Below, in pieces: positions 8,849 through 52,777 of a stretch of DNA of 53,317 nucleotides. The first letter of the stretch is position 1. Every line of letters starts with the position of its first letter. This DNA is from Terriglobia bacterium (GTDB lineage Bacteria > Acidobacteriota > Terriglobia > Bryobacterales > Bryobacteraceae), in assembly GCA_021324185.1 (NCBI GenBank), contig JAJPJN010000174.1, positions 1 through 53,317 on the forward strand, given 5' to 3'. Position numbers and translations under genes: made by a program. The notes beneath the pieces are model-generated. The model had not been told where the DNA came from and did no database searches. It saw only the letters and a list, made by a program, of their open reading frames with translations.

Positions 8849-8875
8849 AAACGGTCTCCCTTTTTACGGCCTCCA

Positions 8876-8960: not shown

Positions 8961-9050
8961 CAAATCTTTCCAGAAAACACACGGCTCCAAGCCGCCAATT
9001 CATGCTTGGCAGATTGATTTTCAGCCGCAAGGCTGGCATTCTGTACGTGC

Positions 9051-9416: not shown

Positions 9417-9440
9417 ACCCGCCGAACCGGCCCGCCTCGG

Positions 9441-11645: not shown

Positions 11646-11704
11646 GTTCCTCTCTCCAAAGCAAAAGCCGCGCCGGATCTAAGGCCAGGCGCAACACGTC
11701 AACT

Positions 11705-12067: not shown

Positions 12068-12119
12068 CAATTGACTATTGTATAGAGCGTGCCGCTGCTG
12101 TTCTGTTACGCTGAGGCGA

Positions 12120-15446: not shown

Positions 15447-15449
15447 CCT

Positions 15450-35157: not shown

Positions 35158-35567
35158 TGCGAAAAATCCTGCGCTACACATGGATCCTGGTGGCTATCGC
35201 CGCGCTTTATGTAGCTTGGATCTTCTACTCACGTCACGAGCGCGAGGCCTCAGCCGAGGCAGCTATCGCCCGGCAGAAGCAGAAGGAAGCACAGCGCGTA
35301 GATAATCTGATCTTCGGATCCGGTGAGATTCAATTCACCACCTTCGGCGCAGACAATGGCGTGCTCCGCCCGGGCGAAAGCACGGAGCTTTGTTATGGCG
35401 TCGTAAACGCCGTGCGCGTAGAGATCGATCCGCCCATCGAACAGGCCAAACCCACTTATCACCACTGCGTCGAAATCGCTCCCAAAAAGACAACCACTTA
35501 CACCATCAAAGCCACGGATGCCAAGGGCAAGACAAAATCCGAATCGTTAACCATCCAAGTTAGATAG
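35154..35567 (+). CDS. Single-span membrane-anchored Ig-like domain protein
   Basis: 137 residues whose ATG overlaps the stop of the hydrolase gene. One membrane span at about 8-26 (YTWILVAIAALYVAWIF) is followed by a charged helix and a periplasmic beta-rich domain with ELCYGVVNAVRVEIDPPI, HHCVEIAPKKTTTYTIKA and the last strand ESLTIQVR, which resembles an Ig-like fold. A Cys in each strand could form a disulfide. No known family is recognised. Translational coupling with the secreted hydrolase suggests a cofactor or anchoring role for it, which is inference. Confidence 0.75.
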   Translation: MMRKILRYTWILVAIAALYVAWIFYSRHEREASAEAAIARQKQKEAQRVDNLIFGSGEIQFTTFGADNGVLRPGESTELCYGVVNAVRVEIDPPIEQAKPTYHHCVEIAPKKTTTYTIKATDAKGKTKSESLTIQVR

Positions 35568-35645
35568 GCAGAGTTTATTTGAACCCGGAGCAGATCGCGG
35601 TCGCTGTTTGGCTCTTCTATTACTTGGTTCGAGCGAGTCTGTTCT

Positions 35646-37022
35646 TCAGGGCTGGCCGGGATAGAACGACAGTGCGCTGCCCCCGAAGTTAGTCCATCCG
35701 TTCCAGCCACCGGAAGAAGGTTGCCAGTCTGACCAAACCGTACCGCTGCTATCCACCGCGAACAGTTGAATACGTTCGTCTTGCGTGCTGGCTGTGACCA
35801 GTTGCGGATCGAGACCGCTGCCGCCCATGTCGGTCCAGTTACCGCCGAAACTTCCGCCAGGCGATCCTTGCTGCCAAATGTTCAATACATCGTTGGGCGA
35901 TTGTGTCGATACACCGAACAATACCAGGCGGCCGTCCTTGTTCTGCCCGATGGCGATTCCCGGCTTGAGCGTCGCGCCGGGAATTTCGGTCCAGTTGTTC
36001 CAGCCGCCACCGGGCGAAGTCTGCGAGATTGTCCAGACATTGCCGGAAGAGTCTACACCAAATACCTGCAACTCACCACCAAGATTTCGCGCCACTGCCA
36101 GACGTGGATTCAACTGCACACCACTCAGCTCTTGCCAACCGCTCCAGCCACCCGCATCGGTTTGCCAGCAATGCCAGATATTGCCGTTGGAGTCGGCGCC
36201 AAATATTTCCAAGTGCCCGTTAAGATTGCGCCCCAGCACATACCCAGGCTTGATTTTGGGGTCTCCGCCGCCATTGTTTAGCGCACTCCAGCCTGAAGCC
36301 CAGCCTATTTCAGGCGCATTTTCAGAAACAGTATAGATTACACCGCCATTATTGAGACCCAAAAGACTCAAGCTGCCATCAGCGTTGTTTCCGGCTGTCA
36401 GATTTGCCAGGCCCAATCCCGCGCTACTGGTCATGTCGCTCCAGGTACTCCATGGCGCCCCACCGGGCGAGGGTTGCTGGCTCCAATAGACATCTCCGCT
36501 CGTCGGCACGAACACCTGCACTGTGTTGTCTTCGTTCTTCACGACAGCGATGCCGCCGGCGGAAGAGACGCCACTAAGTCCTGCCCAGCCGTTCCAATCC
36601 GCCGGCGGGCTCTGAGGTACGTCGGCAGCTTTCTGCCAGTCGTGTTCGACCGCGCCGTTCGCTCCAATAGCAAACATCTCCAACGCACCGTTCTGGTTCA
36701 TCTGGATTGGTCCGAAGAGTGCACCGGCGGCGTCAATTCGAACCACCACCGCCTCGGCCGCTGGCACGGAGAGAGTCAACGAGCCGGAAATGTCCGGTTG
36801 GAGCGGCGTCCATGCGCCGAGCCATGAGGAGTTGTTAGTAATAGTCTTGCCGGCCAGCGTTGCGGCTTTTGGAGTCGGATCGCCCGCTGTGCCGGACGTC
36901 AGCACCATATAAGAGCCGCTGGCTGTGCTGAACCCCTGCGGCTGAATCGTGAGATTGACAGTGGCGCTGTTACCTGTCAGATTATTCGTTTTGTTGATGA
37001 ACGTCAGATAGCTGGTCAGGCC
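35646..37022 (-). CDS. C-terminal part of a GH79-type protein: seven-repeat PLL-like beta-propeller lectin
   Basis: This frame is open upstream of ATG 36908 (back to at least 37022), where it encodes GLTSYLTFINKTNNLTG, the beta-domain continuation of the GH79-type protein that stops at 37016 in another frame. It then contains seven repeats of about 45-50 residues built on GxLxVFGVDSSGNVWxxxQ and a W..W motif, as in PLL/DUF346-type seven-bladed propeller lectins that bind fucose and related sugars. Visible blade cores are GALEMFAIGANG, NTVQVFVPTSGD, GSLSLLGLNNGG, GHLEIFGADSNG, GELQVFGVDSSG, GRLVLFGVSTQS and ERIQLFAVDSSG. It most likely belongs to one split gene with the upstream ORF. The intervening shift is about one base near 37025-37030. 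Confidence 0.8.
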   Translation of the reverse strand, partial: GLTSYLTFINKTNNLTGNSATVNLTIQPQGFSTASGSYMVLTSGTAGDPTPKAATLAGKTITNNSSWLGAWTPLQPDISGSLTLSVPAAEAVVVRIDAAGALFGPIQMNQNGALEMFAIGANGAVEHDWQKAADVPQSPPADWNGWAGLSGVSSAGGIAVVKNEDNTVQVFVPTSGDVYWSQQPSPGGAPWSTWSDMTSSAGLGLANLTAGNNADGSLSLLGLNNGGVIYTVSENAPEIGWASGWSALNNGGGDPKIKPGYVLGRNLNGHLEIFGADSNGNIWHCWQTDAGGWSGWQELSGVQLNPRLAVARNLGGELQVFGVDSSGNVWTISQTSPGGGWNNWTEIPGATLKPGIAIGQNKDGRLVLFGVSTQSPNDVLNIWQQGSPGGSFGGNWTDMGGSGLDPQLVTASTQDERIQLFAVDSSGTVWSDWQPSSGGWNGWTNFGGSALSFYPGQP

Positions 37023-38680
37023 AAGCCGACTGAATAAGCGGTGACCTGATTGTTAAGAGTATTATCCAGACTTACGGCTTCCGAATAGCCGTGGCCGCCC
37101 AAGTCGAACGCCTTAATGGCGTATCCTTTGGGGTTGATCACCCAATCGTCGCAGGGTTCCTGTACACCGCTGCTGTTCTGGCAGCCCGCGGGGAGGTAGC
37201 CGGCGCCGCCGTTCGTGACGGTTACCCCTGTAACCTGATATGAAGTAGGATTACTTCCGGGAATTGGGGCTGTTTGAACTGTTGCCGTTGCAGTTATGCA
37301 ACCGGTGCCAGAACACGGCGGAGCAATTGTGACTCCCGTGGGCGCCGTAGTGTAGGACCCGCCCCTGTTCACCGTTACGGATGTTACCGAGGTCCCGGTG
37401 CTGCTCACAAACGCGCTTGCCGACGCGCATACTAAGGGGCAATTACCTCCAGTAAAAGTCACCGTCGGCGGCTGTCCATAAGTGGCTGGAAGGTTGCCCG
37501 GCAATATGGTATCCGTGTAGAGCCACTGATTGTTGTGAAAATTGACGCCTGCGGCTCCATGCGCAGCCCACCAGTGCATATAGTCCAGCGCCCAGAGGGC
37601 TGAGGCGAATGCGTTGCTGGCGCCGTCTACACCGCCGAGGAAATCGTTCGATTCCGTCAAGCGATAAGCCAGATTGTCGTTAAGCACCGGCTGCAGATTA
37701 TGGCTGTAAAGCCAGAGGTAAGGCGTGTAGGGTTCAAAACCATACGGCCCCGTTGAGAGATGCGGCCCTTCGCTGCCAGTATGGTTGTCCACCCATTCTC
37801 CCGAAAGCATATCTTCAATCGCCGGCGTTGGCAAAAGGTAAACCTTGTGGCCTCCTGAGTTCCAACAAAAGCAGCCTCCAACGTAATAATGCTGAGTGAC
37901 GGCTGTGACCTGAGAGGTGATGATGCCGCCTGGAGTGGCCTTGCAATCGGCAAAGCCCTGAGTCCAGGAAACGCCATTGGGATAGGAGCTGCCGCAGGAG
38001 CTACCTGTATAGTACGAACTCAGATCGTAGGCGCCCGTATCGGGAGAAGCATAGTTTTCCTTAACCGAGTTGTCAATCCCGGTAGCGAACTTTTGCCAGT
38101 CCACTAGATAAGTCGGAAGGTTTGAAATGTTTGGATCGGTTCCGCCCTGACCATAGAGGAATCCATGCCAATCCTGCTCGTTGCCGATCGAGATGGCCTG
38201 CAGCGAAGGCTGATATCCAGACTTTGATATATATTTCGCAATTGCGGCATCGTCCGATGGCTGCGGGCAGTAAGGTGGCTGCGCGGATGGATTGCAATAA
38301 ATGGGGACGGAATAGATCACGTGCAGGCCGGCGAGGGGCGCCCACTGAAATAGGGCGTCTATATCTGAATTCGTTGGGTGAAAGCCATTGACTGTACTGC
38401 CACCAATGCGCAGGTTCTTCAGACTCAGGTTTTGGAAAAGAGTGGTTAGTTGGACATTCCCGGGCGACCAAAAATTGCCCACCACTCCCCCCTGATTGGT
38501 CGCTGAGGTGACCGTCGCCGTTTCAAACCCGAGACCAGTGAAATCGGCGGGAATGGCATAATTCCGGGATGTGGTGTCCACCGTCGCCTTAACCGCCGTC
38601 TGTCCTCGCACAGGACCCGCAATTAGAAAGGTGGGTAAAAACAGCAGAACACATCTGGAAATTCGAAACTTGTCTGACAC
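37016..38680 (-). CDS. Secreted GH79-type glycosidase (heparanase-like), catalytic part
   Basis: 554 residues with a signal peptide (CVLLFLPTFLIAGPVRG). The catalytic barrel shows ISIGNEQDWHG (acid/base Glu in GNE) and AYRLTESNDFLGG (candidate nucleophile Glu), followed by ASALWALDYMHWWAAHGAAGVNFHN, all in the GH79 pattern. A region at about 395-490 (PPTVTFTGG, NRGGSYTTAP, GAGYLPAG) is a repeat-type insertion before the last barrel strand. GH79 enzymes release glucuronic acid or related units from glycans. The stop at 37016 interrupts a typical AYSV...LYVTLINK strand; the lectin follows in another frame. The start is 15 nt after the stop of the Oar-like receptor, so they form an operon. Confidence 0.82.
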   Translation of the reverse strand: MSDKFRISRCVLLFLPTFLIAGPVRGQTAVKATVDTTSRNYAIPADFTGLGFETATVTSATNQGGVVGNFWSPGNVQLTTLFQNLSLKNLRIGGSTVNGFHPTNSDIDALFQWAPLAGLHVIYSVPIYCNPSAQPPYCPQPSDDAAIAKYISKSGYQPSLQAISIGNEQDWHGFLYGQGGTDPNISNLPTYLVDWQKFATGIDNSVKENYASPDTGAYDLSSYYTGSSCGSSYPNGVSWTQGFADCKATPGGIITSQVTAVTQHYYVGGCFCWNSGGHKVYLLPTPAIEDMLSGEWVDNHTGSEGPHLSTGPYGFEPYTPYLWLYSHNLQPVLNDNLAYRLTESNDFLGGVDGASNAFASALWALDYMHWWAAHGAAGVNFHNNQWLYTDTILPGNLPATYGQPPTVTFTGGNCPLVCASASAFVSSTGTSVTSVTVNRGGSYTTAPTGVTIAPPCSGTGCITATATVQTAPIPGSNPTSYQVTGVTVTNGGAGYLPAGCQNSSGVQEPCDDWVINPKGYAIKAFDLGGHGYSEAVSLDNTLNNQVTAYSVGLA

Positions 38681-38695
38681 TATTTCCTCCTCACG

Positions 38696-41600
38696 TCAGA
38701 AAAAGAGCTTTACGGCCACTTGACCGATACGGTAACCATTGCGGTCGCTGGTGATTTTGCTGAAATTAGTTAAGTTAGTGAAGTTGAGCTGGCCGGGGTT
38801 GTTGAATTGCGGATGATTCAGTGTGTTGAAGGTCTCCAAACGGAACTGCAGAGAAGTCTCACGACCAACGGTGAAATTCTTCAATAAAGAAGCGTCGAGA
38901 TTGTAAAAGCCGGGCCCACGCACCTGTTGGGCCTTTGCTCCAAGAGGTGAGAAGTCTCGCTGGCCGACTGCTGTTGCCGAGGGAGGCTGAGCGAATGCGC
39001 GAGGATTCAACCATTGATTGATATCGTGCGGACCGGCGTACGGGTTCTCGCCCGCAACCATATCGGCATTACAGCCAAAATCAGCGGTCGTCGCAGTCGG
39101 GCATGGAATCGTGAATGGTTGCCCACTCTGATAGGTATAGATGTAATTAATGGTCCATCCGCCAGCAAGTGCCTCAAGCCACCTGCCCGCCCCACTCAGG
39201 AGGTGATGGCCTCTCCCAAACGGCAGTGCATATTCCCCGGATACATGCACTACATGCGTTGTGTCGTTTTTGCATAGAACATAATCGGGACCGATCCCGA
39301 AACCCGGCAGCCACTGCGCACGATATCCCTCAATGAGTTCACCGTTGTTCGTCGCGGATGCCATGCACCTGGAATATGTGTAATTAGCCAGCAAAATCAA
39401 GTTATCTTTGAATTGGTGCTGATACACCGTCTGCAGCGAGTGATAGTTGCTTATCGCATTAGTAGCTACATCCTGCATGTTTGCTGAGAAGCTTGGGAAA
39501 GGTAGGTAGTTTGTCTGGTTGGTTCCCGGCGGTAAAATCACTTGAGGAGAATTCTGCGCTCCATATGAATCCTGATGTCGTCCCAGCGACGCCACATACC
39601 CGGTTTGGATCGAGTCGCGGGACGTGAATTGGTACTGCACAGTAACATTTGCGCTCTGCACAAACGGAGTCTTGTAATTGTACTGTTTCCCGAAAAGAGA
39701 CAGCCCGGAACCCGTCACAGTTAATGGATCTTCCAAATTAAGAACTCCGAACGTAGTTTCAAGAGTAGCTACCTGATTGTTCGGCAGCAGGTCCGGCGTT
39801 TGCGAAGTCAGGCTGGGATTGCTGATTAGAAACTGGAAGGGATAGTTCGTTCCCAGCGTACCGCCATATCCTACGGTTGCAAACGCGCCGTATGAAATGC
39901 CGTATCCAGCACGCAAAACAAGATTTGATCGCAGGCGCCAGGCTACTCCCGTCCGCGGAGCGAAATTAGTGAACTGTCCCCTGTTAACCCTGAGACCGGA
40001 GACGCAATCAACCTGAATGTTATATCCGGCTAGAAGAGCGTTGAAGGCGGCGGAACGCGGTTGACCGCATCCCTTTTGTGGCATATAATAAACGCCTCCG
40101 GGACCGTCTCCTCCGGTTTCCTGGAAGTTCGCTTGCGCGCCATTACTTTCTCCGTACGGTGAAGAGTATTCCCACCGCAGACCTAGATTCAAAGTAAGAC
40201 TCGGCGTAACATGCCAGTTATCTTGGAAATAAGAAGCCAAATAATCGGCAAAATATTTTGATCCGGCCCAGTTTGACCCCGAATAGCTGCTCATTCCTCC
40301 GAGGTTGGAAATCCCGCCTGGAACCAGAGTCGCGCGCGGGAGCAGGAGCATATCGGCGATCCCAAGTTCGTTACTGTTTTTGTTCGGAATATCGGAGTAC
40401 ATCCCGCTAAATCCGAATTCGCCCTTGCTGTATGCGGGTTGGAGCATATTTCCCCGTATGTGGTTAATCTCGAAACCTGCGCGGAATTCGTGTCTTTCAT
40501 GAACTTTCATCAGGTTATCGAATAACTCTAGGGCGCTTGTAGTCTGCAAGGTAGGCATATAACGGCGCCCGCCGAAACTGCTGAATCCACTGTAATCGAT
40601 GGTCGGAAGTCCGCCATTCCCGGGTATCTGCGGTATACCTTGAATTCCGTACTGGCCAGGCAATCCCAGCGTATTGGCAGTAGGCATGGTCAGGTTATGC
40701 ACCACGTGGTCATAACCGCCCGTTATCTCGTTTTCAAAAGTAGGCGAAAAGATATGGGTGTAGTTCAAAGCAAGCTGATAGTGCGGATCTTCATCGATGG
40801 GATTGATGTTGAGCGCACCACCTGCGATCCCGGCGAAAGGTTGGTAGGGTCCAATATGCTGGTGGCTGCGGCTGAAGACGCCCCAGATCAAATCCTTCTC
40901 GCTCAGGTTCTCGTCAATTCTGAGATCGTACTGATTAATGTACTGAGTCGCTGGCGGAACGGTATAGTAATTGTTCAGCAGAACACCGCCATTCGTCGGC
41001 GCTGGAAGCAGCTTGAGCAACGCAACTGAATTCTGATCAATTCTGGACGTTGGAATGATGTTCAAACTGGAAACGGGAATCTTTGTAAAGTCCTTGATGC
41101 CGCTCAAAGGCCCACCGGGTGCGTAATTCGCCGCATTGCAGCCAGAAGTGGAGCAGTTGTAAAACGGATCGCGAACATAGACCGTACTGTTGCTGTTATT
41201 CGTCAACCCGGTAATCGGATCCAGCGCGCCCGCGGGCACAGGCCGCGTGGTGGCGGGATCGAGGATTGTGCCGTGCGGAAATATGCGGCCTAAGCCGTCT
41301 GTGCTTGTCCCTGCGTTACCAATGATGTCGTCCGGATTACCGTTGATCAGATCCTGCAGGTTCGTGTAGTTACTGCTGCGCATTGCATTGGTCGGCACCG
41401 TAAAGCCGGAAAATGCCGCCTGCTGCTCGACATTTGTGCGCTGGTAGTCAAAGAAAAAGAACGTTTTATTTCGGCCGTTATAGAGCTTGGGGAGAACAAC
41501 CGGACCGCCTACCGTTCCTCCAAATTGATTCTGCCGGTATTCCTGCCGCGCCTTGCCATTCTGCTTGTTGAAATAATCGTTGGCATTGAAGTCTTCATTG

Positions 41601-42358
41601 CGCAGGTATTCCCAAACATCTCCTTTGATCTGGTTCGTGCCGGATTTAAGGACGGCGTTTACTACCGGCCCCGTGAACTGGCCGAACTCCGCGCTGTTGT
41701 TGCCTTCCTGTAGTTTGAATTCTTGGATCGCATCAGGCACTGGTGCCACGCTCACACCGCCAAACACCTCTGAGTTGTCATCAACGCCGTTCAAACGATA
41801 GTCCACCTGGACCTGACTAACGCCGTTTGCCCAGAGTTGATTGGCGTTATCCGGGGAGGAGCCCACAGGGGCAAGAGTGCCCGCCGAGATCTGCGCAAGA
41901 GAGAACCAGTTGCGCCCCTGCAAGGGCAGGTCGTTTACGGAAACTTCGGAAACCGTCTGACCCAGCGATGCATCCTGTGCCTGGAGTAGCGAGACCTGCG
42001 ACGTGACTGAGATCTGCTGGCGCACCTCGCCCATCGCCAGCGGCACGTCCGCCGTGACCACGTTCTGAACGTGGACCTGGATACCCTCCAGAATGTAGGT
42101 TTTGAATCCCGGCGCCTCGACCTTCAGCGTGTAGACACCTACCGGGACGCCCTCAAAGACATAAGTTCCGCTCGAGGTCGACTGCGTCTCAAGGCTGACA
42201 GTCGTCTCCTGATTAATCAGGGTGACGTGCGCATTGGGCACCACGGCGCCGCTGCTGTCTTTCACCGTGCCTGCTACGCCGCCCTGAGCAATCTGAGCGT
42301 GCGAGAGCCCGGTTCCTGCAAAAAACAGCAGCGCCACAGCACGAACGTACCTCGTCAT
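38696..42358 (-). CDS. Oar-like TonB-dependent receptor, partner of the GH79-lectin
   Basis: About 1220 residues from the ATG at 42358 (nine residues inside the longer frame), which places a signal peptide VRAVALLFFAGTGLSHAQ at the N-terminus. The CarboxypepD_reg domain contains GTVKDSSGAVVPNAHVTLI. The plug contains LPLQGRNWFSLAQ, DAIQEFKLQEGNNSAEFG and VVNAVLKSGTNQIKGDVWEYLR. The barrel ends in QVAVKLFF, with the terminal Phe. The gene is directly followed by the GH79-type enzyme (15-nt gap), so they are probably cotranscribed: receptor and exoglycosidase for one glycan. A membrane-bound regulator is encoded divergently 208 bp away. Confidence 0.93.
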   Translation of the reverse strand: MTRYVRAVALLFFAGTGLSHAQIAQGGVAGTVKDSSGAVVPNAHVTLINQETTVSLETQSTSSGTYVFEGVPVGVYTLKVEAPGFKTYILEGIQVHVQNVVTADVPLAMGEVRQQISVTSQVSLLQAQDASLGQTVSEVSVNDLPLQGRNWFSLAQISAGTLAPVGSSPDNANQLWANGVSQVQVDYRLNGVDDNSEVFGGVSVAPVPDAIQEFKLQEGNNSAEFGQFTGPVVNAVLKSGTNQIKGDVWEYLRNEDFNANDYFNKQNGKARQEYRQNQFGGTVGGPVVLPKLYNGRNKTFFFFDYQRTNVEQQAAFSGFTVPTNAMRSSNYTNLQDLINGNPDDIIGNAGTSTDGLGRIFPHGTILDPATTRPVPAGALDPITGLTNNSNSTVYVRDPFYNCSTSGCNAANYAPGGPLSGIKDFTKIPVSSLNIIPTSRIDQNSVALLKLLPAPTNGGVLLNNYYTVPPATQYINQYDLRIDENLSEKDLIWGVFSRSHQHIGPYQPFAGIAGGALNINPIDEDPHYQLALNYTHIFSPTFENEITGGYDHVVHNLTMPTANTLGLPGQYGIQGIPQIPGNGGLPTIDYSGFSSFGGRRYMPTLQTTSALELFDNLMKVHERHEFRAGFEINHIRGNMLQPAYSKGEFGFSGMYSDIPNKNSNELGIADMLLLPRATLVPGGISNLGGMSSYSGSNWAGSKYFADYLASYFQDNWHVTPSLTLNLGLRWEYSSPYGESNGAQANFQETGGDGPGGVYYMPQKGCGQPRSAAFNALLAGYNIQVDCVSGLRVNRGQFTNFAPRTGVAWRLRSNLVLRAGYGISYGAFATVGYGGTLGTNYPFQFLISNPSLTSQTPDLLPNNQVATLETTFGVLNLEDPLTVTGSGLSLFGKQYNYKTPFVQSANVTVQYQFTSRDSIQTGYVASLGRHQDSYGAQNSPQVILPPGTNQTNYLPFPSFSANMQDVATNAISNYHSLQTVYQHQFKDNLILLANYTYSRCMASATNNGELIEGYRAQWLPGFGIGPDYVLCKNDTTHVVHVSGEYALPFGRGHHLLSGAGRWLEALAGGWTINYIYTYQSGQPFTIPCPTATTADFGCNADMVAGENPYAGPHDINQWLNPRAFAQPPSATAVGQRDFSPLGAKAQQVRGPGFYNLDASLLKNFTVGRETSLQFRLETFNTLNHPQFNNPGQLNFTNLTNFSKITSDRNGYRIGQVAVKLFF

Positions 42359-42566
42359 GGGCGCTTCGAACAAAAATGCAATCAATCGTGACGTATGTGG
42401 ACATGTTAGCTGTTCTAGTAGGCGTTCTGTCTACGTTACGGGCGAGCTCGTTCTTGCACGTACGTTGCTGAAAAGCAAGCAGTTCTGCGGCCTACCTGAT
42501 ACGAACGGTTACGAGCTCCGTTTGCAGGCCGTCGTGCAGCGCTCTGCCGCGTGCTAAAATGCCGCG
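42359..42566. promoter_or_regulatory. Divergent control region between receptor operon and membrane regulator
   Basis: A 208-bp intergenic region with no ORF. ACGTACGT is a perfect palindrome at 42458-42465. Directly after it TTGCT-GAAA-AGCAA forms a hairpin with a GNRA loop (42465-42478). A related ACGTATG occurs at the receptor-proximal side near 42390. These are candidate operator elements. No confident promoter boxes are called. Confidence 0.35.
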
Positions 42567-44036
42567 ATGGCAGGGCACGGGCACGCAGTTATGGAGCCAT
42601 CCAGTGATCGCCAGGCGCAACTCACAAAATTGGCCGAATCACACGAAGTGGTTGTTGCACTTCGAAAGCATATCGAGGAGATCGTCGAAGGCAACGCATT
42701 CAAGGCAAGCCATCGCAGCGGACAATTTCTCAAGTACATTGTGGAGCAGGCCATAACTGGCCGCTTCGAATCTTTAAAGGAGCGCGTTATTGGCACCGAA
42801 CTCTTCGGCCGCCATCCTTCGTACGATACGGGCCAGGACGCAATTGTTCGTGTCGCCGCAAGTGACGTCCGCAGGCGTCTTCTACAACATTATGATAGGT
42901 ACTGTACAGAGTCTGAATTCCGCATTACAATTCCGCAGGGTTCCTATATCCCGGAAATTCTCTGCCGGTACGCACCTGGTGTCAAGGCGTCTGGATCAGC
43001 CAGCTCGCCCGGCAACGCAGAATTTTCTTCAGTGGGTTTGCCCACCTATGAGAACGAAATCCAAATAGCAGTAGATGAGGTACGAGGGCCGGCCGCCCCG
43101 GCAATGGGCATCCAAACTCCCCCATCTCGAAAGCGGTTTAATCGGCGACGGCTCTTCCTCGTGTTTCTGGCGTTGCCACTTCTTGCCGCGTATGCCATTT
43201 TCTGGAAGCGCTCGTTTTTAACGGACTTCGCACATGCTTCGGCTCGTACCTTTGCACCAGCTTCCGTCCTCCCCTGGTCCGCATTCTTCGAATTTCCCAA
43301 GTCCACGCATCTTATTACGAGCGATCCTGATATCTTCTGGATTCAGAAAATTACCGGAAATCCGATTTCGGTTTCCGATTATGCAAATCGCGTCTATCTA
43401 CCTGCTCACAATACCCTCAGCCCGGAGCTGAAGCAGATTTGTTTGAACTCTCTGCGTGGCGATAAGTCGGCCAGCGTCGATATTCCTATTGCTATGAACA
43501 TTGAAAATCTAGCGCTCAGCCGATCGAGACATCTGGACGTACACACAGCTCGCGACGTTCAATTTTCGGACCTGAAGACCGACGACAATCTTATATTTCT
43601 GGGAAGTCCACGATCAGATCCGTGGAGTTCCCTTTTCAATGATCAATTGGATCTTCAGTTTGTTGTCTCGAAAGGTACTATCGACGAAATCATTTATAAT
43701 GTTCACCCGAAAAAAGGAGAGCAGTTAATCTATGCCCAAACAGCCAAGGGAGGCGCTACCGGTGAATCTTTTGCTATCGTCGCCTTCGTTCGAAATCCCG
43801 ATCAGGATGGACAAGTACTTCTTTTGGCGGGGCTCAACGCTGAGGGCACACTTGCGGCGGGGAAGCTTGTAACAGATACTTCTCGCTGGTCAACGGCGCT
43901 GCAACAGTGCGGCATCTCGCCTCACGGACCAATTAAGCACTTCGAGATGCTGCTGCGTGTGAAAATGATGGCGAACACCCCGAACGAATCGGATCTTGTG
44001 ACTTGTCATATTCTGTCTGAACCTTCCCCGCGATAG
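42567..44036 (+). CDS. Membrane-anchored regulator-like protein with N-terminal DNA-binding-type domain
   Basis: 489 residues. The N-terminal 35-135 region has the conserved pattern SGQFLKYIVEQAITGRFESL, KERVIGTELFGRHPSYDT, DAIVRVAASDVRRRL and IPQGSYIPE, seen in acidobacterial proteins annotated as winged-helix-like or adenylate-cyclase-type regulators. A basic stretch then one membrane span (about 196-213) follows, then a periplasmic C-terminal domain of about 270 residues with no recognisable family. This is the layout of one-component ToxR/CadC-like transmembrane regulators. It is divergent from the Oar receptor/GH79 operon and probably senses its substrate. DNA binding has not been demonstrated for this family to my knowledge; treat it as inference. 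Confidence 0.65.
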   Translation: MAGHGHAVMEPSSDRQAQLTKLAESHEVVVALRKHIEEIVEGNAFKASHRSGQFLKYIVEQAITGRFESLKERVIGTELFGRHPSYDTGQDAIVRVAASDVRRRLLQHYDRYCTESEFRITIPQGSYIPEILCRYAPGVKASGSASSPGNAEFSSVGLPTYENEIQIAVDEVRGPAAPAMGIQTPPSRKRFNRRRLFLVFLALPLLAAYAIFWKRSFLTDFAHASARTFAPASVLPWSAFFEFPKSTHLITSDPDIFWIQKITGNPISVSDYANRVYLPAHNTLSPELKQICLNSLRGDKSASVDIPIAMNIENLALSRSRHLDVHTARDVQFSDLKTDDNLIFLGSPRSDPWSSLFNDQLDLQFVVSKGTIDEIIYNVHPKKGEQLIYAQTAKGGATGESFAIVAFVRNPDQDGQVLLLAGLNAEGTLAAGKLVTDTSRWSTALQQCGISPHGPIKHFEMLLRVKMMANTPNESDLVTCHILSEPSPR

Positions 44037-44080
44037 TGCATCTCAGTTACTTGAGTCGTGCGCCTGATTATAATGAGCCA

Positions 44081-45526
44081 ATGCGCCGCATGCTGGGAAC
44101 CCTCCTGGTGTTTTTTGCCGGCGCGAAGGTTACCGCACCGGAATTGACCTGGATGGCCTATCTTGGCGGTTCGGGTACGGACGATTGTGACGGAATCGCC
44201 GTGGACAGTGCCGGCGACATCTATCTCGCGTGCCATTCGGACTCTCCGGACTTTCCGCATCTTCCTCCGAAGGCTGCATCTCCATCTCGCGATGCGATAC
44301 ACGCCATCGTAGTCAAGATCGACGCGCGCTCAGGCCGGTTGGTATGGGTCACGCGCACTGGTGGAAGCGGCTGGGATGCTGCCGGTGACCTTACGGTAAG
44401 CCGGGACGGCACGATCTATGTTCTCGGCCAGACGCAATCCGCTGATTTCCCCACAACTGCGGACGCGGTGCAGCGACGCTTCGGAGGCCCGGCTCGCGAT
44501 GTGTTTCTGCTCAAGCTGGATTCTAAAGGAACGATCGTCTATTCAACTCTCCTGGGCGGCTCAAAGAATGATGAACCGGGCGGAATGGCAGTGGCTGGCG
44601 ACGGAACGGTCTACATCGGCGGCGTAACAACATCGCCGGACTTTCCCGGTTCACGAGCTGCTTCCTTTGGCCCCGGCGGTCAACAGGACGCGTTCATCGC
44701 CCGGCTGCGGCCTGGCGACCCCAATAGTTTGCAGACCGTATTGCTAGGAGGAAAAAACACGGACCGCGTCAGCAGTGTGGCGCTCGACAGCGCGGGCGAC
44801 ATTTTTGCTTCCGGCTATACATCCTCGGTCGACTTTCCTTTGAAGAATCCGCTACAGCCGCGATTCGGAGGTCAAGTCGATGGGTTCCTGGTCAAACTCC
44901 ACATCTCCGATTGGACTCTGCGGTTCTCGAGCTATTTGGGTGGCTCAATGATGGACGGAGCCTATGGAGTTGCCATCGATTCGTCCGGCAACCCAATTGT
45001 CTCCGGAGTAACTGAATCGGCCGATTTTCCGGCCACACCAGCCGCATTTCAGCCGCACCGGCGTGGATCCATTGATGCGTTCATCACGAAGCTGAGTGCT
45101 GATGGCGGCGGTATTCTTTGGTCCACCTTTTATGGCGGCTCCAAGGCGAATTCCGATCAGTACTTAGGTGGAAGCCTGGCCGTCGACAAAGCCGGCCGGA
45201 TCTGGCTTACCGGTATGACGAATTCACGTGATCTGCCGGCACGGAACCCATCGCAAGCACTATACGGTGGCAGCGACTTTGACGGGTTCCTTGCGGCTTT
45301 TTCATCCGACGGCGCGAAGCTCTGCTACGCCTCCTACTTCGTCGCAACTGGCCATGACATTTTGGAAGGACTCGCCATCTGGAATCACAAAGTATACGCT
45401 TCGGGCCTTTCCTCATCCACGAACCTCAGGCAGAGGGGGTCGCAAATCCAGCGCGGCTATGGCGGTGGACCATACGACGCCATCCTCATCGGCTTGCAAC
45501 TACCGATTGAGCAGGGCTGCCCCTAG
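44081..45526 (+). CDS. Secreted SBBP beta-propeller repeat protein
   Basis: About 481 residues from ATG 44081 (an upstream GTG at 44036 lies in the stop of the previous gene). A short signal peptide (RRMLGTLLVFFAGA) precedes repeats built on GIAVDSAGDIYLA, DLTVSRDGTIYVLGQTQSADFPTT, GMAVAGDGTVYIGGVTTSPDFP, SVALDSAGDIFASGYTSSVDFP, GVAIDSSGNPIVSGVTESADFPAT and SLAVDKAGRIWLTGMTNSRDLPA, that is the SBBP/DxAGNxYVTGxTxSxDFP motif. Such repeats form secreted propellers with unknown ligands. It follows the regulator on the same strand by 44 bp and is probably part of the same region, but a common function is inference. Confidence 0.88.
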   Translation: MRRMLGTLLVFFAGAKVTAPELTWMAYLGGSGTDDCDGIAVDSAGDIYLACHSDSPDFPHLPPKAASPSRDAIHAIVVKIDARSGRLVWVTRTGGSGWDAAGDLTVSRDGTIYVLGQTQSADFPTTADAVQRRFGGPARDVFLLKLDSKGTIVYSTLLGGSKNDEPGGMAVAGDGTVYIGGVTTSPDFPGSRAASFGPGGQQDAFIARLRPGDPNSLQTVLLGGKNTDRVSSVALDSAGDIFASGYTSSVDFPLKNPLQPRFGGQVDGFLVKLHISDWTLRFSSYLGGSMMDGAYGVAIDSSGNPIVSGVTESADFPATPAAFQPHRRGSIDAFITKLSADGGGILWSTFYGGSKANSDQYLGGSLAVDKAGRIWLTGMTNSRDLPARNPSQALYGGSDFDGFLAAFSSDGAKLCYASYFVATGHDILEGLAIWNHKVYASGLSSSTNLRQRGSQIQRGYGGGPYDAILIGLQLPIEQGCP

Positions 45527-45561
45527 GACGTTTGATTTTGCGCCGTCTCGTAAAATGAAGC

Positions 45562-46779
45562 GTGCCGGACGCTCTTCCTCGGCTGCGCTTCAATCTGGAT
45601 TTCATGCCTTCGCCGGACCCACGGCGGCCAGGGCTGATTATTCGTGATCCGTACCATTACACGGACGCGACGCTGATCGTGCCGCCACCGCTCGTGCAGG
45701 CGCTCGAGTGTTTTGATGGGCAGCAATCGACTTTGGATCTACGTTCAGAGCTGGTGCGTATTACGGGCGAGATTCAGGTAAGCGACCTCGAGAAGCATCT
45801 TTTCGATTCTTTGAACGATGCTGGGTTTCTCGAAAACGAGCGTTATCGCGAGTTAAAGGCCAAAAGAGAAGAGGAGTTTGCGCAGGAAGAGGTACGGCAG
45901 GCCATCTTTGCTGGCTCTGCCTATCCGGCGGATGCCGGCGCGCTTTCGACAGTATTGACGCGGCGCGTGGGGCGCCCGGAAGGATCGGCGGCAACCATCG
46001 CCGTGGCGGCGCCGCATGCCAGCCCCGATGGCGGTTGGGACACGTACAAGGCCGCCTATCAGGCGCTGCCCGCGGTCGAACAAGCGAAGGACAAGACGTT
46101 CGTGATCCTCGGCACATCGCATTACGGCGCGCCGGACCGTTTCGGGCTCACGCGCAAGCGGTTTGTCACGCCATTCGGCACTGCGCGAACGGAAACCGGT
46201 ATTGTCGACGAGTTGGAGACCGCCGCGGCGGAGGCGGTGCGCATGGAGGACTACTGCCATGCTGTGGAACACTCTATCGAGTTTCAGATCCTTTTTCTCC
46301 AGCACCTCTACGGCGCGGACATCCGCATCCTGCCAATTCTGTGCGGGCCATTTGTGAAGAGTATCTACCAGGGCGGCCTGCCCGAAGACAATGACGGTGT
46401 GGCGCGCTTCTTTGACGCTCTCGGGAATATCGCGGCGCGGGAATCTCAGCGGCTCTTTTGGGTGCTGGGTATCGATATGGCCCATATTGGGCAGCGCTAT
46501 GGCGATCCGCTGCGCGCCACGGCGAATGAGGGTGAGATGCTTGCCGTGGAGCAGCGCGACCGGCAGCGGATTGCGTGCATCAACGAAGGTGATGTGCGGG
46601 GCTATTGGTCACTTGTGCAAGAAGGGCATGACGATCTGAAGTGGTGCGGCGCATCGCCTATTTACACCTTCCTGAAAGCAATGCCTGGCCTACGCAGTGA
46701 TCTGCTCGATTATCATCAGTGGCAGATCGACCCCGCGAGTGTTGTCAGTTTTGGAGCGCTGCGCTTCAGAAAACAGTAA
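45562..46779 (+). CDS. AmmeMemoRadiSam system protein B (Memo-like)
   Basis: 405 residues from GTG 45562. The start is supported because the LPRLRFNLDFMPSPDPRRPG stretch before the ATG 45604 is conserved in relatives. Residues 1-110 form an N-terminal extension found in acidobacterial members. The Memo domain follows: AGSAYPADAG, VAAPHASPDGGW (His), VILGTSHYGA (His), EHSIEFQILFLQHL (His, Glu) and FWVLGIDMAHIGQRYG (His). Memo domains fold like extradiol dioxygenases. The ammemorysam trio (A, B, radical SAM) is usually clustered, but here the A and radical SAM partners are not in view. The reaction is unknown. Confidence 0.85.
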   Translation: MPDALPRLRFNLDFMPSPDPRRPGLIIRDPYHYTDATLIVPPPLVQALECFDGQQSTLDLRSELVRITGEIQVSDLEKHLFDSLNDAGFLENERYRELKAKREEEFAQEEVRQAIFAGSAYPADAGALSTVLTRRVGRPEGSAATIAVAAPHASPDGGWDTYKAAYQALPAVEQAKDKTFVILGTSHYGAPDRFGLTRKRFVTPFGTARTETGIVDELETAAAEAVRMEDYCHAVEHSIEFQILFLQHLYGADIRILPILCGPFVKSIYQGGLPEDNDGVARFFDALGNIAARESQRLFWVLGIDMAHIGQRYGDPLRATANEGEMLAVEQRDRQRIACINEGDVRGYWSLVQEGHDDLKWCGASPIYTFLKAMPGLRSDLLDYHQWQIDPASVVSFGALRFRKQ

Positions 46780-46787
46780 AGTCGAAG

Positions 46788-48008
46788 TTACTGAACGCCG
46801 CCACCCCACCAATATCCGGGACGCGTGCGGATCTTCAAACCCGGGCGATCGACCACTACGCGTATGGTGTGGAAGCCCGGTTCGTTGGTATCGTTCGGGC
46901 GGTAGCTCAACAGGTACTGGCTGTTCAAGTCCTTGCCAATATCCGCTATAGCCTGTTCCATGGCGTGTTCGGAAGCGAAATTGTAGACGCGGCCCCCGGT
47001 AAAGTAGGTGAACGCTTCAGCGGGACTCTTTCTAAACAATTCATGGATGGCGCGCAGAATCGGGGGCACGGCGTTGAGCGCGTTGGTGTAGTCGTTCTGC
47101 TGGACTTCCGTCGTTTGGTTGCGCGGCCCCATACCGCCGGCGATATTGGGCTGCGCCTCCGGCGGTATGCCGCCTTCGGCTGGACGCGGGTAATCCGGCT
47201 TCTTTAAGAGAGCGGTGTAAGCCCTGTTGATGTCGATGCAATAGACGATCACGTTGTCGAACTGCATCTGCTGGATGGCATCGCGCATCTTGCCCTCGCT
47301 GCCTTTATCGATATTGCGGCTGAGCACGATGACGACCCGGCGGCGCACGTTGCGCGGATCGTGACGTTTGAGCATGTGGTCGGCTTCCGTGATGGCATCG
47401 ATCAGGCGCGCGCTGCTCGAGCCGGCCTTCAGCTTCTGCATGGAATCCTGGAGCTTTTGCGGATCGTTGGTGAAATCCTGCAAGACCTGGAGGCGATGAT
47501 CGAAGGCCAGGATTGCGACATCACCTTCGACGCCCGTCACCAGTCCCTGCATCAGTATGCCGGTTTTTCGCAGCTTGTCCAGAACCGGTTCAATCTCCGA
47601 ATTGGCCTGCACGGCAACCACAACCGAGAGAGGCAACTGGGTGTAATCGGCGTTTACTTTTTGCGGCTTGTCGTTGTCGAAGACCTGAAAATCGGCTGCC
47701 GTCAAGCCGTTCACGTAGCCGTGGCCATCGGGATCAAAGACGGTGGTGGGCACGAGAACATCGCGGCCAATGACACGGAAGGTGGTACTATTGTCGTCTC
47801 CTGAGCTTTCCACAGGAGGTTCGGTGCTCTTGGGCGGCGGTTCCGCGTCACGCTTCGGCAACGTGGCTGGCGGAGGGCCAAGCTGGCCTGGCTGCGGCGG
47901 AGGGCCGGGCGGGAGCTGTCCGGGCGGCAGAATTTGCCCGAATTCCGGTGCTGCTAACCCGAACAGCAATATGACAAAAGACAAAACCTTCGGCGCCTGT
48001 CTCATCAT
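46788..48008 (-). CDS. Secreted VWA-domain protein of acidobacterial type, degenerate MIDAS
   Basis: 406 residues. Signal peptide (SFVILLFGLAAPEFGQ), a Pro-rich linker (about 25-65), then the layout of VWFA-related acidobacterial proteins: VLVPTTVFDPDGHGYVNGLTAADFQVFDN, then a VWA fold with LSVVVAVQANSEIEPVLDKL, RRRVVIVLSRNIDKGS and the C-terminal SQYLLSYRPND...FHTIRVVVDRPGLKIRTRPGYW. The usual DxSxS metal motif is replaced by VQANSE, so divalent-metal-dependent ligand binding is doubtful. It is encoded 45 bp after the mogA stop on the same strand, with a 12-bp perfect palindrome between. Function unknown. Confidence 0.85.
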   Translation of the reverse strand: MMRQAPKVLSFVILLFGLAAPEFGQILPPGQLPPGPPPQPGQLGPPPATLPKRDAEPPPKSTEPPVESSGDDNSTTFRVIGRDVLVPTTVFDPDGHGYVNGLTAADFQVFDNDKPQKVNADYTQLPLSVVVAVQANSEIEPVLDKLRKTGILMQGLVTGVEGDVAILAFDHRLQVLQDFTNDPQKLQDSMQKLKAGSSSARLIDAITEADHMLKRHDPRNVRRRVVIVLSRNIDKGSEGKMRDAIQQMQFDNVIVYCIDINRAYTALLKKPDYPRPAEGGIPPEAQPNIAGGMGPRNQTTEVQQNDYTNALNAVPPILRAIHELFRKSPAEAFTYFTGGRVYNFASEHAMEQAIADIGKDLNSQYLLSYRPNDTNEPGFHTIRVVVDRPGLKIRTRPGYWWGGGVQ

Positions 48009-48053: not shown

Positions 48054-48545
48054 TCATTTATTTGCACAGTGTTCCGTTCGTCCGGCGAGCAGGTCGATCA
48101 GGTGCGGTATCAGGCTCTCGATGAGTCCTAAGGAGTAGAGGGCGCCTTTGGGGGAACCGGGCAGGTTCACGATGAGTGTCTGTTTTCTGTTGCCGGCAAG
48201 CGCGCGGGAAAGTACTGAGAATTTCGTCTGCTCGAGGCCTTTGGCGCGCATCAGCTCGGCTATGCCGGGAATCTCACGATCTAAAACGGCGCGAGTGGCT
48301 TCCGGGGTGACGTCCCGCGGGGAAACGCCGGTTCCGCCGGTGGTCAGAATAAGATTCGCGATGGCCTGATCCGCCCACGTCCTCAGACGTTCCGAGATGG
48401 CGGTTTCCTCGTCGGCAACAACATCGAGCTGAGCGACGGGCCAGCCCAACTCCGCGCAGCGAGTTTTCAGCGCGGGACCGGACAGGTCTTCGCGCGTACC
48501 GGCGACGGCGGAATCACTGATGGTCAAGATGGCGACGCGGATCAT
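48054..48545 (-). CDS. mogA: Molybdopterin adenylyltransferase MogA/MoaB-like
   Basis: 163 residues. VAILTISDSAVAGTREDLSGPAL and LILTTGGTGVSPRDVTPEAT are the family's nucleotide- and molybdopterin-binding motifs, with the Asp and Thr residues intact. IVNLPGSPKGA is the second half of the site. The enzyme adenylates molybdopterin before Mo insertion by MoeA. MogA and MoaB cannot be separated by sequence alone here. It is the last gene of the operon, with a 4-bp overlap with moaC. Confidence 0.9.
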   Translation of the reverse strand: MIRVAILTISDSAVAGTREDLSGPALKTRCAELGWPVAQLDVVADEETAISERLRTWADQAIANLILTTGGTGVSPRDVTPEATRAVLDREIPGIAELMRAKGLEQTKFSVLSRALAGNRKQTLIVNLPGSPKGALYSLGLIESLIPHLIDLLAGRTEHCANK

Positions 48546-49030
48546 TTGGCCGTCCTCTTCCTGGCGCCCCGGCGGAACGTTCCTGATTTGCCACCGGTCT
48601 TTTCGAGCAAGCAGATTTCGCGAATCTCGATCTGTTTATCCAATGCTTTTGTCATGTCATAGATGACCAGCGCCGCAACGCAAGCGGCAGTCATTGCTTC
48701 CATTTCGACGCCGGTCTGCGCGACGGTAGAAGCAGTGGCGGTGATTTCGATGCCGTTTTTCATGACGCGAAAATCCACACCGGCATGCGTGAGAGGCAAC
48801 TGATGGCAGAGCGGTATCAGATCAGAGGTCTTCTTGGCGGCGGAGATACCGGCGATGCGCGCGATTTCCAAGGGATCTCCTTTCGGGTTGTCGGGCAGCG
48901 CGCGAATGACACGCGGGGCCATTTGCACAAAGGCGCGAGCCATCGCGGTGCGCGCGGTGGGCGGCTTGCCGCCGACATTCACCATGGACACTTTGCCCGC
49001 GGCGTCATAATGCGAAAGTTTTGCCTTCAT
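48542..49030 (-). CDS. moaC: Cyclic pyranopterin monophosphate synthase MoaC
   Basis: 162 residues. Signature segments are MVNVGGKPPTARTA, SDLIPLCHQLPLTHAGV, VEMEAMTAACVAALVIYDMTKA and KTGGKSGTF. MoaC converts the MoaA product to cyclic pyranopterin monophosphate, the first stable cofactor intermediate. It overlaps moeA upstream and mogA downstream by 4 bp each, so the three are translationally coupled. moaA is not in view. Confidence 0.95.
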   Translation of the reverse strand: MKAKLSHYDAAGKVSMVNVGGKPPTARTAMARAFVQMAPRVIRALPDNPKGDPLEIARIAGISAAKKTSDLIPLCHQLPLTHAGVDFRVMKNGIEITATASTVAQTGVEMEAMTAACVAALVIYDMTKALDKQIEIREICLLEKTGGKSGTFRRGARKRTAK

Positions 49031-50253
49031 GGTTTTGCCATGACACGAATGGAATCGCCGATATTCCAGGTTTCGCGATCGTGATCGGCGACTAGGAATA
49101 CGTTGGCGCCCGCGAGTGAGGGAACATCACTTGAACCTTGCCACGGAATGTGTCTGAGCTGCTGGCCATCTTCGCTCAAGCGGGCCGGCAAAAAACGTGT
49201 GAGCCCCAATTTGTGACGGAAGGGCGCTGCGAAGCGAGCGGACAAGAGCGGCAGAATGGGCGCCTCGATTCCGGCGAGAACTTCAAGCGCGGCGCGCGCG
49301 AAGAGTTGGAAAGTGACGAGTGTCGAGCCTGGATTTCCGGGTAGTCCGAAGACGGGCTTGTTCGCGAAAATACCGAAGGCGGCCGGCTGCCCCGGCTGGA
49401 CGCGCACCCGTTCGAAATGGAAATTTACTCCTAAGGCGCGCAGCTCCGGTTTGACGAGATCGTATTTGCCTGCTGAGACACCCCCGGTGACGATCAGCAT
49501 GTCGTGTTGCAGGCCGCGTTCCAGCAAGGGCCGCAGGGCCTGGGGAGTGTCGCGGGCGACGGGCAAGATGGTTGGCTCGCCGCCAGCGGCTTGCACCAAT
49601 GCTGCGAGCATAAAGGAGTTCGAATTGCGGACCTGATGGGGCGCGGGTTGCTCGTCGATAGCGACGATCTCATCACCGGTAGCAAGGATGGCGACGCGCG
49701 GTAATGCTTCGACGTTCGCGGCCGCGTGCCCGGTCATGGCAATCGTTGCGACGTGGGAGGCATCGAGTTTTGTTCCGGCAGGAATCAGGATCGAACCCTT
49801 TTTGGCTTCGGCGCCTTGTTCGTTGATGAACTGATTGGGCTCGGCCGTGCGCTCGATCTTAACGAGCGGCTCTGCGCCGGGACCGTTGGTGCGCTCAACG
49901 TGCTCGACCATGACGACGGCATCGGCGCCGGGAGGAACGGGCGCTCCGGTCATAATTTCCAAGGCTTCACCGGATTCGAGCGGCGCCTGTTCGGCCTCGC
50001 CGGCGCGAACTTCGCCGCGAATGCGCAGCGTTCCGGGAACATCACTGGACTTCACCGCGAAGCCATCGCGCAACGAGCGGCGGAGGGCGGGATAATCTCT
50101 GTCGGCGTGAACGGCTTCAGCGAGGACGCGGCCGTGTGCGTGGGCGAGATCGACGAGTTGCAAATTTCGTGTGCGGCTCAGCGATTGAACTGCCGCAATG
50201 ACGATGCGGCGGGCTTCCTCGAAATCGAGGGCAGGTTTTTGTTGTGGCGGCAC
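49027..50253 (-). CDS. moeA: Molybdopterin molybdenumtransferase MoeA
   Basis: 408 residues. Motifs are AHGRVLAEAVHADRDYPALR, SLRDGFAVKS, EIMTGAPVPPGADAVVMVEH, VAILATGDEIV, MLIVTGGVSAGKYD and PVFGLPGNPGSTLVTF. All the main MoeA regions are present. It inserts molybdate into adenylated molybdopterin. It is the first gene of the moeA-moaC-mogA operon and overlaps moaC by 4 bp. Upstream lies the IS110/remnant region, so its promoter must sit in about 50254-50367. Confidence 0.95.
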   Translation of the reverse strand: MPPQQKPALDFEEARRIVIAAVQSLSRTRNLQLVDLAHAHGRVLAEAVHADRDYPALRRSLRDGFAVKSSDVPGTLRIRGEVRAGEAEQAPLESGEALEIMTGAPVPPGADAVVMVEHVERTNGPGAEPLVKIERTAEPNQFINEQGAEAKKGSILIPAGTKLDASHVATIAMTGHAAANVEALPRVAILATGDEIVAIDEQPAPHQVRNSNSFMLAALVQAAGGEPTILPVARDTPQALRPLLERGLQHDMLIVTGGVSAGKYDLVKPELRALGVNFHFERVRVQPGQPAAFGIFANKPVFGLPGNPGSTLVTFQLFARAALEVLAGIEAPILPLLSARFAAPFRHKLGLTRFLPARLSEDGQQLRHIPWQGSSDVPSLAGANVFLVADHDRETWNIGDSIRVMAKP

Positions 50254-50640: not shown

Positions 50641-50835
50641 AGCTGCCCGGTGCCGAGGGCAAACGAAGGCCGGTCTTCGTCTGGTGCTTTGAGCCCGTTT
50701 GTGATTGTGGCCTGGACGCGTTGAGCAGTTGTGCATGGCACAGCGGATTGTCGCCTCTGCCGCAAGGCAGGGAGCACCTGAAGGAATGTCTTGAGTTGAT
50801 TCCAGCGTCCTTTGCTCGCGGCAGAGGAGACAAGC
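50641..50835 (+). ncRNA. Hairpin-rich leader of the IS110-type element, candidate bridge RNA remnant
   Basis: No open reading frame of its own. Three hairpins: ACGAAG/CTTCGT around 6 nt (50663-50680), TGTGC/GCACA around 3 nt (50730-50742), CTGCC/GGCAG around GCAA (50757-50770). In IS110-group elements the noncoding left end directly upstream of the recombinase encodes the bridge RNA that pairs with target and donor DNA. Position and length (about 195 nt) fit. The element is decayed, so this is at best a fossil. It is inferred from position and folding only. Confidence 0.35.
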
Positions 50836-52768: not shown

Positions 52769-52777
52769 TCACTTTAT

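Follow-up and report, generated by a model that had tools for sequence, protein, structure and literature searches.

We analysed a 53,317-nucleotide stretch of DNA (the window) from a Terriglobia bacterium of the Bryobacteraceae (GCA_021324185.1, contig JAJPJN010000174.1), which is contig C101 of its genome assembly (4.70 Mb, 184 contigs, 96.85% complete). Our analysis centres on a locus at positions 35646 to 45526, in which a membrane-anchored regulator, P0001, and an Oar-type TonB-dependent receptor, P0005, are divergently transcribed, and in which a GH79-like open reading frame (ORF) starts 15 nucleotides (nt) behind the receptor on the same strand. The locus contains the following features, with the model confidence given as predicted local distance difference test (pLDDT) and hydropathy on the Kyte-Doolittle (KD) scale:

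35646-36908, minus strand: remaining GH79 C-terminal domain and PLL-type propeller of a broken GH79-PLL gene, P0004 (5c9o, 4.7e-41)
37016-38680, minus strand: GH79-like catalytic part of the same gene, P0003 (5g0m, 6.6e-16)
38696-42385, minus strand: Oar-type TonB-dependent receptor P0005, 1229 residues (PF25183, 2.8e-195; PF13620, CarboxypepD_reg, 1.2e-19)
42386-42566, no strand: regulator/receptor intergenic region, presumed bidirectional promoter, in which the clade repeat described below was sought and not found
42567-44036, plus strand: membrane-anchored regulator P0001, an ORF of 489 residues
42606-42974, plus strand: N-terminal winged-helix-like domain of P0001, residues 14-136, putatively DNA-binding (pLDDT 92.4 when modelled on its own)
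43149-43205, plus strand: transmembrane helix of P0001, residues ~195-213 (19-residue KD mean 2.07; helix 195-224 in the model)
43260-44018, plus strand: C-terminal, presumably periplasmic, sensor-like domain of P0001, residues 232-484, assigned by fold comparison
44036-45526, plus strand: SBBP propeller protein 3' of the regulator (PF06739, 2.7e-26; likely start 44081)

An earlier, sequence-only reading of this locus had described a divergent membrane-anchored regulator-like protein, an Oar-type receptor of 1220 residues, a GH79-type glycosidase and, behind them, an SBBP propeller protein. Our results bear out the regulator, with its one hydrophobic span, the GH79-like nature of the 37016-38680 ORF and the presence of SBBP repeats in the last ORF; the type of the receptor is likewise supported by its PF25183 and CarboxypepD_reg matches, its length being 1229 rather than 1220 residues. 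The reading had also placed the locus outside the SusC/SusD type, and this held: a genome-wide search with the two SusD models PF07980 and PF14322 gave no match at E <= 0.001, and both models gave matches in a Bacteroides control. The SBBP gene, which had been counted as a member of the unit, sits behind the regulator and had no match at E 1e-5 in either the second copy of the unit described below or the loci of 75 named relatives, and does not belong to it. Scans of 35400-45800 for sigma-70 promoters (8 found, 6.8 expected) and terminators (14 found, 10.8 expected) gave numbers near chance.

The relationship between the glycosidase and the propeller, which the earlier reading had worded as fused or followed, can be clarified. 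The DNA between the GH79-like and PLL ORFs continues in another frame, with a frameshift near 37020, and a further copy of the unit is present in the same genome, on contig C16 (locus L050). That copy consists of a regulator (8311-9660, minus strand), a receptor (9862-13515, plus strand) and, 10 nt behind the receptor, an intact GH79-PLL fusion protein of 920 residues in a single open frame (13526-16288, plus strand). Because the C16 copy is intact and the window DNA reads on in another frame, the two window ORFs represent one gene split by a frameshift, whose catalytic and C-terminal domains lie in a broken frame in the window and are whole in C16. It is thus the fusion that stands, and neither a separate lectin gene nor an independent lectin part, since the first propeller is joined to the enzyme. 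P0003 has an ordinary signal-peptide-like start and gave no match in a Pfam search; the residues aligned with E173 and E287 of 5g0m, which we take to be the catalytic glutamates, are its E168 and E343, found in NE and TE contexts. P0004 is matched by the PLL lectin 5c9o over five stretches and by the NCBIfam model beta_propeller_lectin at 104.5 bits, under that model's cut-off of 200. PLL lectins are seven-bladed, and the propeller may, like other members of that family, bind fucose or O-methylated sugars. The window GH79-like ORF also contains about 110 extra residues (about 395-505) with repeated VTxVTVxxGGxxY-like motifs, which the C16 paralogue lacks.

Between the two copies, identity is 65% for the receptors and, by BLAST, 46-58% for the catalytic and lectin pieces (58% for P0004 against residues 504-920 of the C16 protein). 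Third codon positions are saturated, with an identity of 0.35-0.40 in the receptor, lectin and catalytic parts, and identity by codon position was therefore used in place of the ratio of nonsynonymous to synonymous substitution rates (dN/dS). For first, second and third positions it was 0.69/0.74/0.38 in the lectin part and 0.72/0.80/0.40 in the receptor, and second positions remained at 0.70-0.80 also past the frameshift. This pattern suggests that the receptor and the enzyme-lectin parts have been under long purifying selection and, since it is the same past the frameshift, that the shift is probably either recent or an assembly error. The regulators of the two copies are only 24% identical and belong to different clades (among the 66 regulator-receptor pairs described below, P0001 is nearest to L158, at 54%, and the C16 regulator to L139, at 49%), and one receptor-enzyme block is therefore joined to two different regulators in a single genome.

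GH79-like sequence was found in 2 of 200 genomes of the family, the source genome included, and no GH79-PLL fusion was found outside the source genome, either in these 200 or in 396 genomes of the phylum, where at most two candidates were scored per genome and rare fusions may be missed. The conserved four-gene block was rejected, the fusion being confined to the source genome and the SBBP gene occurring in none of the 75 named loci; the four-gene order envisaged for other Solibacteres is thus not conserved. Another acidobacterium (G329, locus L236, 9155-14501) has a lectin-free GH79-like gene and an Oar-type receptor in divergent orientation, and no P0001 relative was found within that 19 kb.

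The regulator itself belongs to a family without a Pfam model. P0001 has a single hydrophobic span (19-residue window from residue 196), and the basic RKRFNRRR stretch before the helix suggests that the N-terminus lies inside the cell. No sequence match to P0001 was found in Pfam (to 0.01), NCBIfam (to 0.1) or the PDB sequences (to 5), and 55 family members (P0001 counted twice) yielded one weak Trans_reg_C match (0.021) and one weak BcsB match (0.0043) with Pfam. In the AlphaFold2 model (mean pLDDT 84.3), a helix at 195-224 separates an N-domain from a C-domain. When the N-domain was compared with 219 chains, five of the top six structural rows were OmpR/PhoB-type DNA-binding domains at Z 5.7-6.7 (SaeR at Z 6.7, with 87 aligned residues and a root-mean-square deviation (rmsd) of 3.5; PhoB at Z 5.8) and the sixth was a chain of a transcription initiation complex; Z scores of this size can reflect a common arrangement, and a shared fold shows no function. 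Foldseek gave no significant match for this domain (best E 1.1), and hhalign against 12 OmpR-type domains of the same genome gave weak matches in the expected register (pairwise E 0.013 and 0.054; probability 3% and 1%). The predicted fold of the C-domain resembles residues 533-728 of BcsB (9fmt_F; Z 12.1 over 170 aligned residues, rmsd 3.4). Lower-scoring resemblances are to GH115 and GH67 alpha-glucuronidases, in their N-domains (Z 8.0-9.8), and to the S-layer anchoring domain 9fsa (Z 9.6); Foldseek alone was marginal, with a best E of 1.7e-3. The N-terminal domain has 15 matches in the source genome, mostly in longer proteins and including the regulators of both units, and two proteins with this domain (L051, 2661-4208; L053, 7071-9179) also have an Oar-type receptor in divergent orientation, 219 and 628 nt away.

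The membrane and C-terminal part of P0001 is matched in 129 of the 200 family genomes, the source genome included, and the sensor-domain alignment in 48 of the 396 phylum genomes, representing 20 of 211 genera, with at most six candidates scored per genome. The neighbourhoods examined were those of 60 of the 63 best-ranked family matches (two pieces in G159 and one match in G140 were omitted) and 75 loci from named acidobacterial genomes, the best kept of 98 relatives. Together these gave 119 deduplicated full-length regulators, of which 113 were counted, six having too little 5' flank. An Oar-type receptor is divergent within 800 bp of 66 of the 113 regulators (three with overlapping called starts), compared to 9 of 545 among the remaining genes of these loci with 300 residues or more; it lies just downstream on the same strand in 8 further cases, divergent but farther away in 7, convergent in 3 and upstream on the same strand in 1. 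Regulator and receptor distances are correlated over the 66 pairs (Mantel r 0.70; none of 2000 shuffles reached it, the best giving 0.13), a correlation that arises partly through shared descent of the genomes. The pairing of regulator and receptor exceeds chance, and the source genome has two copies of the three-part unit. As this 4.7 Mb genome gave 69 PF25183 matches, some being fragments of one gene, it could be argued that Oar-type receptors are so common that their neighbours mean nothing; we consider this extremely improbable in view of the 66 of 113 against 9 of 545, the Mantel test and the placement of the repeat described next.

Of 63 intergenic regions, 23 contain inverted 7-mers, compared with 7.1 after shuffling (at most 13), and the intergenic motifs track the clade of the regulator. 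The P0001 clade (22 pairs) is characterised by two sites. In the first, CAACGTTAGG is followed by TAACG at 18-20 bases, counted from where the first block starts; the second is TAACGGTAGCTAC. Site 1 scores at least 11/12 in 16 of the 22 regions of this clade, 2 of the 44 regions of other clades and 0.8% of resampled sequences (L100 carries it too, within the called receptor start); the corresponding figures for site 2, at a score of at least 11/13, are 15 of 22, 0 of 44 and 0.3%. The motif was derived from these same intergenic regions, and its genome-wide placement is the more independent test. In 14 family genomes, including the source genome, the exact pattern was found at 10 distinct sites, spread over 9 genomes; nine of the sites are 5' of a clade regulator, five of them at 95-98 nt; among the nine, one overlaps the called start by 7 nt and one precedes a regulator gene in two pieces, and the tenth (G199:C614, L271) is not 5' of a clade regulator. 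The genomes of 11 further relatives hold 20 distinct sites, 16 of which precede a regulator (8), an Oar receptor (2) or a carbohydrate-enzyme gene (6: GH3 twice, GH92, GH2, an alpha-1,3-glucanase and a pectate-lyase-like gene, at 67-253 nt); the other four lie before a pro-kumamolisin peptidase, before a DUF3738 gene, between convergent genes and inside a gene. Because these 11 genomes were chosen for having clade regulators, the eight regulator sites are partly expected, while the six enzyme and two receptor sites are not. In the same 11 genomes, 25 sites match the reversed pattern, 20 of them inside ORFs and none before a regulator, receptor or carbohydrate enzyme (one, in L289, has the end of a receptor within 1.5 kb); seven of the 25 have a gene start within 300 nt, with no carbohydrate-enzyme match and four without a Pfam family. 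The repeat stands out by its placement only, not by its abundance. In Acidobacterium sp. S8 (L273, 1-9001) it separates a GH3 gene from the regulator and recurs ahead of a GH92 gene, with an Oar-type receptor downstream, which makes for a more complete locus.

A different combination is seen in cluster 7, where six of seven regulators read VRVQASQLR and four of seven upstream regions hold AATTC repeats about 10-12 bp apart, which occur in none of the 22 P0001-clade regions and were not produced by shuffling (rate 0.0). These observations bear on the alternative that the regulator is a membrane scaffold or an anti-sigma-like protein that binds no DNA, another factor being responsible for binding the repeats. 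Such a role would be in keeping with the lack of a Pfam DNA-binding domain in P0001 and with the Foldseek and hhalign results for its N-domain, but the clade motifs vary with the putative recognition helix (VRVTASDVR with CGTTA...TAACG, VRVQASQLR with GAATTC repeats) and OmpR-type DNA-binding domains make up five of the six best structural rows, and we judge it unlikely.

The window copy is an exception within its own clade. The putative recognition helix of P0001 reads VRVAASDVR, where the other 20 of the 21 readable clade members read VRVTA(S/T)DVR, and the same alanine is found in a single regulator from outside the clade, in cluster 6. We do not propose a window-specific GAGCTC element, the longer form of which is at chance in the window (14 matches, 12.1 expected). 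Because its enzyme is frameshifted and the clade repeat is absent, the window copy looks drifted or decaying: either protein and operator have changed in concert, or the decay seen in the enzyme extends to its control. It is possible, though in our view doubtful, that the window copy is a decaying duplicate without present function and that the C16 copy does the work. The broken enzyme frame, the absent repeat, the changed helix residue and the intact second copy would all be explained in this way; however, the reading frames of both the receptor and the regulator are open in the window, and the lectin part past the frameshift shows the purifying pattern of the receptor, so that the shift would be recent or an assembly error. 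A decaying window copy would in any case be compatible with the kind of system we propose below.

The genes encoded behind the paired receptors give an indication of what these systems may handle. For 43 of the 66 pairs, the receptor is followed directly, within 400 nt, by a co-directional gene longer than 150 residues, and 35 of these 43 cargo genes were scanned (the window's own gene, the receptors of L112, L119 and L149, the short ORFs of L125, L134 and L148, and L210 were omitted). Glycosidases, lyases or sulfatases account for 18 of the 35: GH99-like proteins in five loci (L098 and L104 above the Pfam cut-off; L095, L100 and L103 below it and homologous to those two), the GH79-like fusion of L050, two GH92, two GH2 (one in L227), GH42, GH35, GH127 and GH31 (L193), two heparinase II/III proteins (L212 and L228) and two sulfatases. 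The L210 cargo, outside the count of 35, is also a heparinase. The others include two GFO/IDH/MocA oxidoreductases, four FG-GAP/ASPIC proteins and one DUF5054 protein, the rest being mixed (e.g. ABC transporter, kinase, UPF0182) or unmatched. The FG-GAP/UnbV_ASPIC proteins (L105, 2370-4124; L109, 2385-4268; L124, 2279-4063; L137, 2324-4078) are a possible second type of cargo. The compact SusD-less glycan unit with a membrane regulator proposed from the sequence thus survives as a recurring pair with frequent glycosidase, lyase or sulfatase cargo, and not as a conserved order of four genes.

The main rival on mechanism is that the Oar-type barrel serves as a secretion port for the enzyme encoded behind it, with the regulator matching export capacity to enzyme load. 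The Oar protein of Myxococcus xanthus is reported to secrete the protease PopC in a TonB-dependent manner (PMC11658791), and both the co-directional genes of varied family behind the receptor in 43 of 66 pairs and the retention of receptor and enzyme together in the two copies of the unit, where the regulator differs, would fit such a port. On the other hand, 69 PF25183 matches in one genome, some of them gene pieces, are in our judgement many for dedicated exporters, the placement of the repeat before genes for GH3, GH92, GH2 and alpha-glucanase enzymes is what would be seen in a utilisation regulon, and P0003 has its own signal-peptide-like start; we therefore consider export quite unlikely. 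A combined scheme seems just as improbable, in which the barrel itself would export the co-encoded enzyme, as Oar exports PopC, and also import the product, under an undescribed regulator family with clade-specific helix and operator whose BcsB-like domain would read the traffic through the barrel.

The gene content of the locus, the fusion, its duplication, the recurring acidobacterial pairing and the clade repeat with its placement in relatives are, in our opinion, probably best accounted for by a dedicated SusD-less glycan-utilisation cassette under the control of a membrane regulator of an apparently undescribed family. P0001 would be a one-component regulator whose cytoplasmic N-domain binds DNA and whose C-domain senses something in the periplasm, and it would control the divergent operon encoding the Oar-type TonB receptor and a secreted GH79-like glycosidase with its own lectin. 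The enzyme would cut and hold a glycan outside the cell, probably one bearing uronic acid (the earlier reading also named fucose as a candidate); the receptor would import the product, and the regulator would read the arrival of this product, its presumed ligand, in the periplasm. The window copy may be controlled in the same way.

Several points weigh against this interpretation. The proposed DNA binding comes from a middling fold match (best Z 6.7) with no clear sequence match. The loci were picked by similarity to P0001, not at random, and even so 28 of the 113 regulators have no nearby Oar-type receptor, and 3 of the 10 named relatives nearest to P0001 (L158, L161 and L163) have a divergent receptor within 800 bp. 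The cargo count covers regulator-paired receptors alone. The best sites in 42386-42566 score 7/12 (site 1) and 8/13 (site 2), the level of resampled sequence, and a search for the exact repeat across the window's own genome gave 0 sites; L167, L172, L193 and L194 retain the helix threonine yet are without a full site 1. The repeat is also no commoner than its reversed form (11 versus 17 matches in the 14 family genomes, 21 versus 25 in the 11 genomes). Lastly, the C16 receptor and enzyme carry a regulator only 24% identical to P0001, which suggests that P0001 is not strictly tied to this substrate.

Comparison with known systems places the proposed cassette among TonB-dependent carbohydrate loci. 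The regulators of SusC/SusD loci are of histidine-kinase or sigma/anti-sigma types. SusC/SusD has been described for the utilisation loci of Bacteroidota (PMC11658791). As in a polysaccharide utilisation locus of this type, a TonB-dependent transporter, a secreted glycosidase and a local regulator are found in one locus here, the receptor and GH79-like genes being 15 nt apart; in contrast to it, there is no SusD match, the barrel is of the Oar type (PF25183), the regulator is a predicted one-component membrane protein and the lectin is fused to the enzyme. The carbohydrate loci of Xanthomonas reportedly have no SusD, a different receptor family and a soluble repressor; the regulator here is membrane-bound. 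Like the TonB-receptor loci by which Xanthomonas scavenges carbohydrates (PMC1790865), the window locus combines such a receptor with an enzyme and a regulator. TonB-receptor carbohydrate loci outside the SusC/SusD type are thus already known, and by analogy the window cassette would be a variant of them.

P0001 resembles ToxR, CadC and TcpP in its predicted winged-helix-like N-domain, single span and presumably periplasmic C-domain, and differs from them in that its family has no recognisable Pfam DNA-binding domain, a BcsB-like sensor fold and a frequent pairing with Oar receptors. A survey of transmembrane transcription regulators, which reports slightly more of them in Acidobacteriae, assigned DNA-binding domains by Pfam models (PMC10269533), and the P0001 family, having no such recognisable domain, would therefore probably be missed by it. 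Neither the regulator family nor its pairing with Oar receptors is described in the accessible parts of the open-access PubMed Central (PMC) literature searched, which included PMC10269533, PMC3174227, PMC7074687 and PMC11658791, and to which subscription papers and preprints do not belong. The likeness of P0005 to the M. xanthus Oar lies in the barrel type, as judged from the earlier reading's naming and PF25183; the M. xanthus protein is reported as a TonB-dependent exporter of PopC (PMC11658791), whereas export would be a hypothetical function of P0005. The catalytic part and the propeller match in sequence the GH79 beta-glucuronidase of Acidobacterium capsulatum (5g0m) and the PLL lectins of Photorhabdus (5c9o), and differ from these proteins in being joined here in one presumably secreted protein.

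Few groups of soil bacteria are as common as the acidobacteria, and to our knowledge their glycan sensing and uptake are little understood. A Pfam-less regulator family with a predicted operator would provide a direct handle on the substrates of the dozens of Oar-type receptors in a genome like that of the window, which could be guessed from neighbouring genes and regulons (such as the GH3, GH92, GH2 and alpha-glucanase genes in relatives), and the core of switch and transporter may be the acidobacteria's own wiring for sugar scavenging.

Elsewhere in the window, a second Oar-type receptor (27505-31470) adjoins a large PAS/GAF hybrid histidine kinase (24187-27423), and an IS110-type transposase ORF (50812-51519) adjoins pieces matching Oar-type receptors (51407-52135 and 52203-52772). 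The locus is followed downstream by a gene for a Memo-like protein (45562-46779), one for an acidobacterial VWA-domain protein (46788-48008; TIGR03436, 1.4e-43) and molybdenum-cofactor genes (48054-50253).

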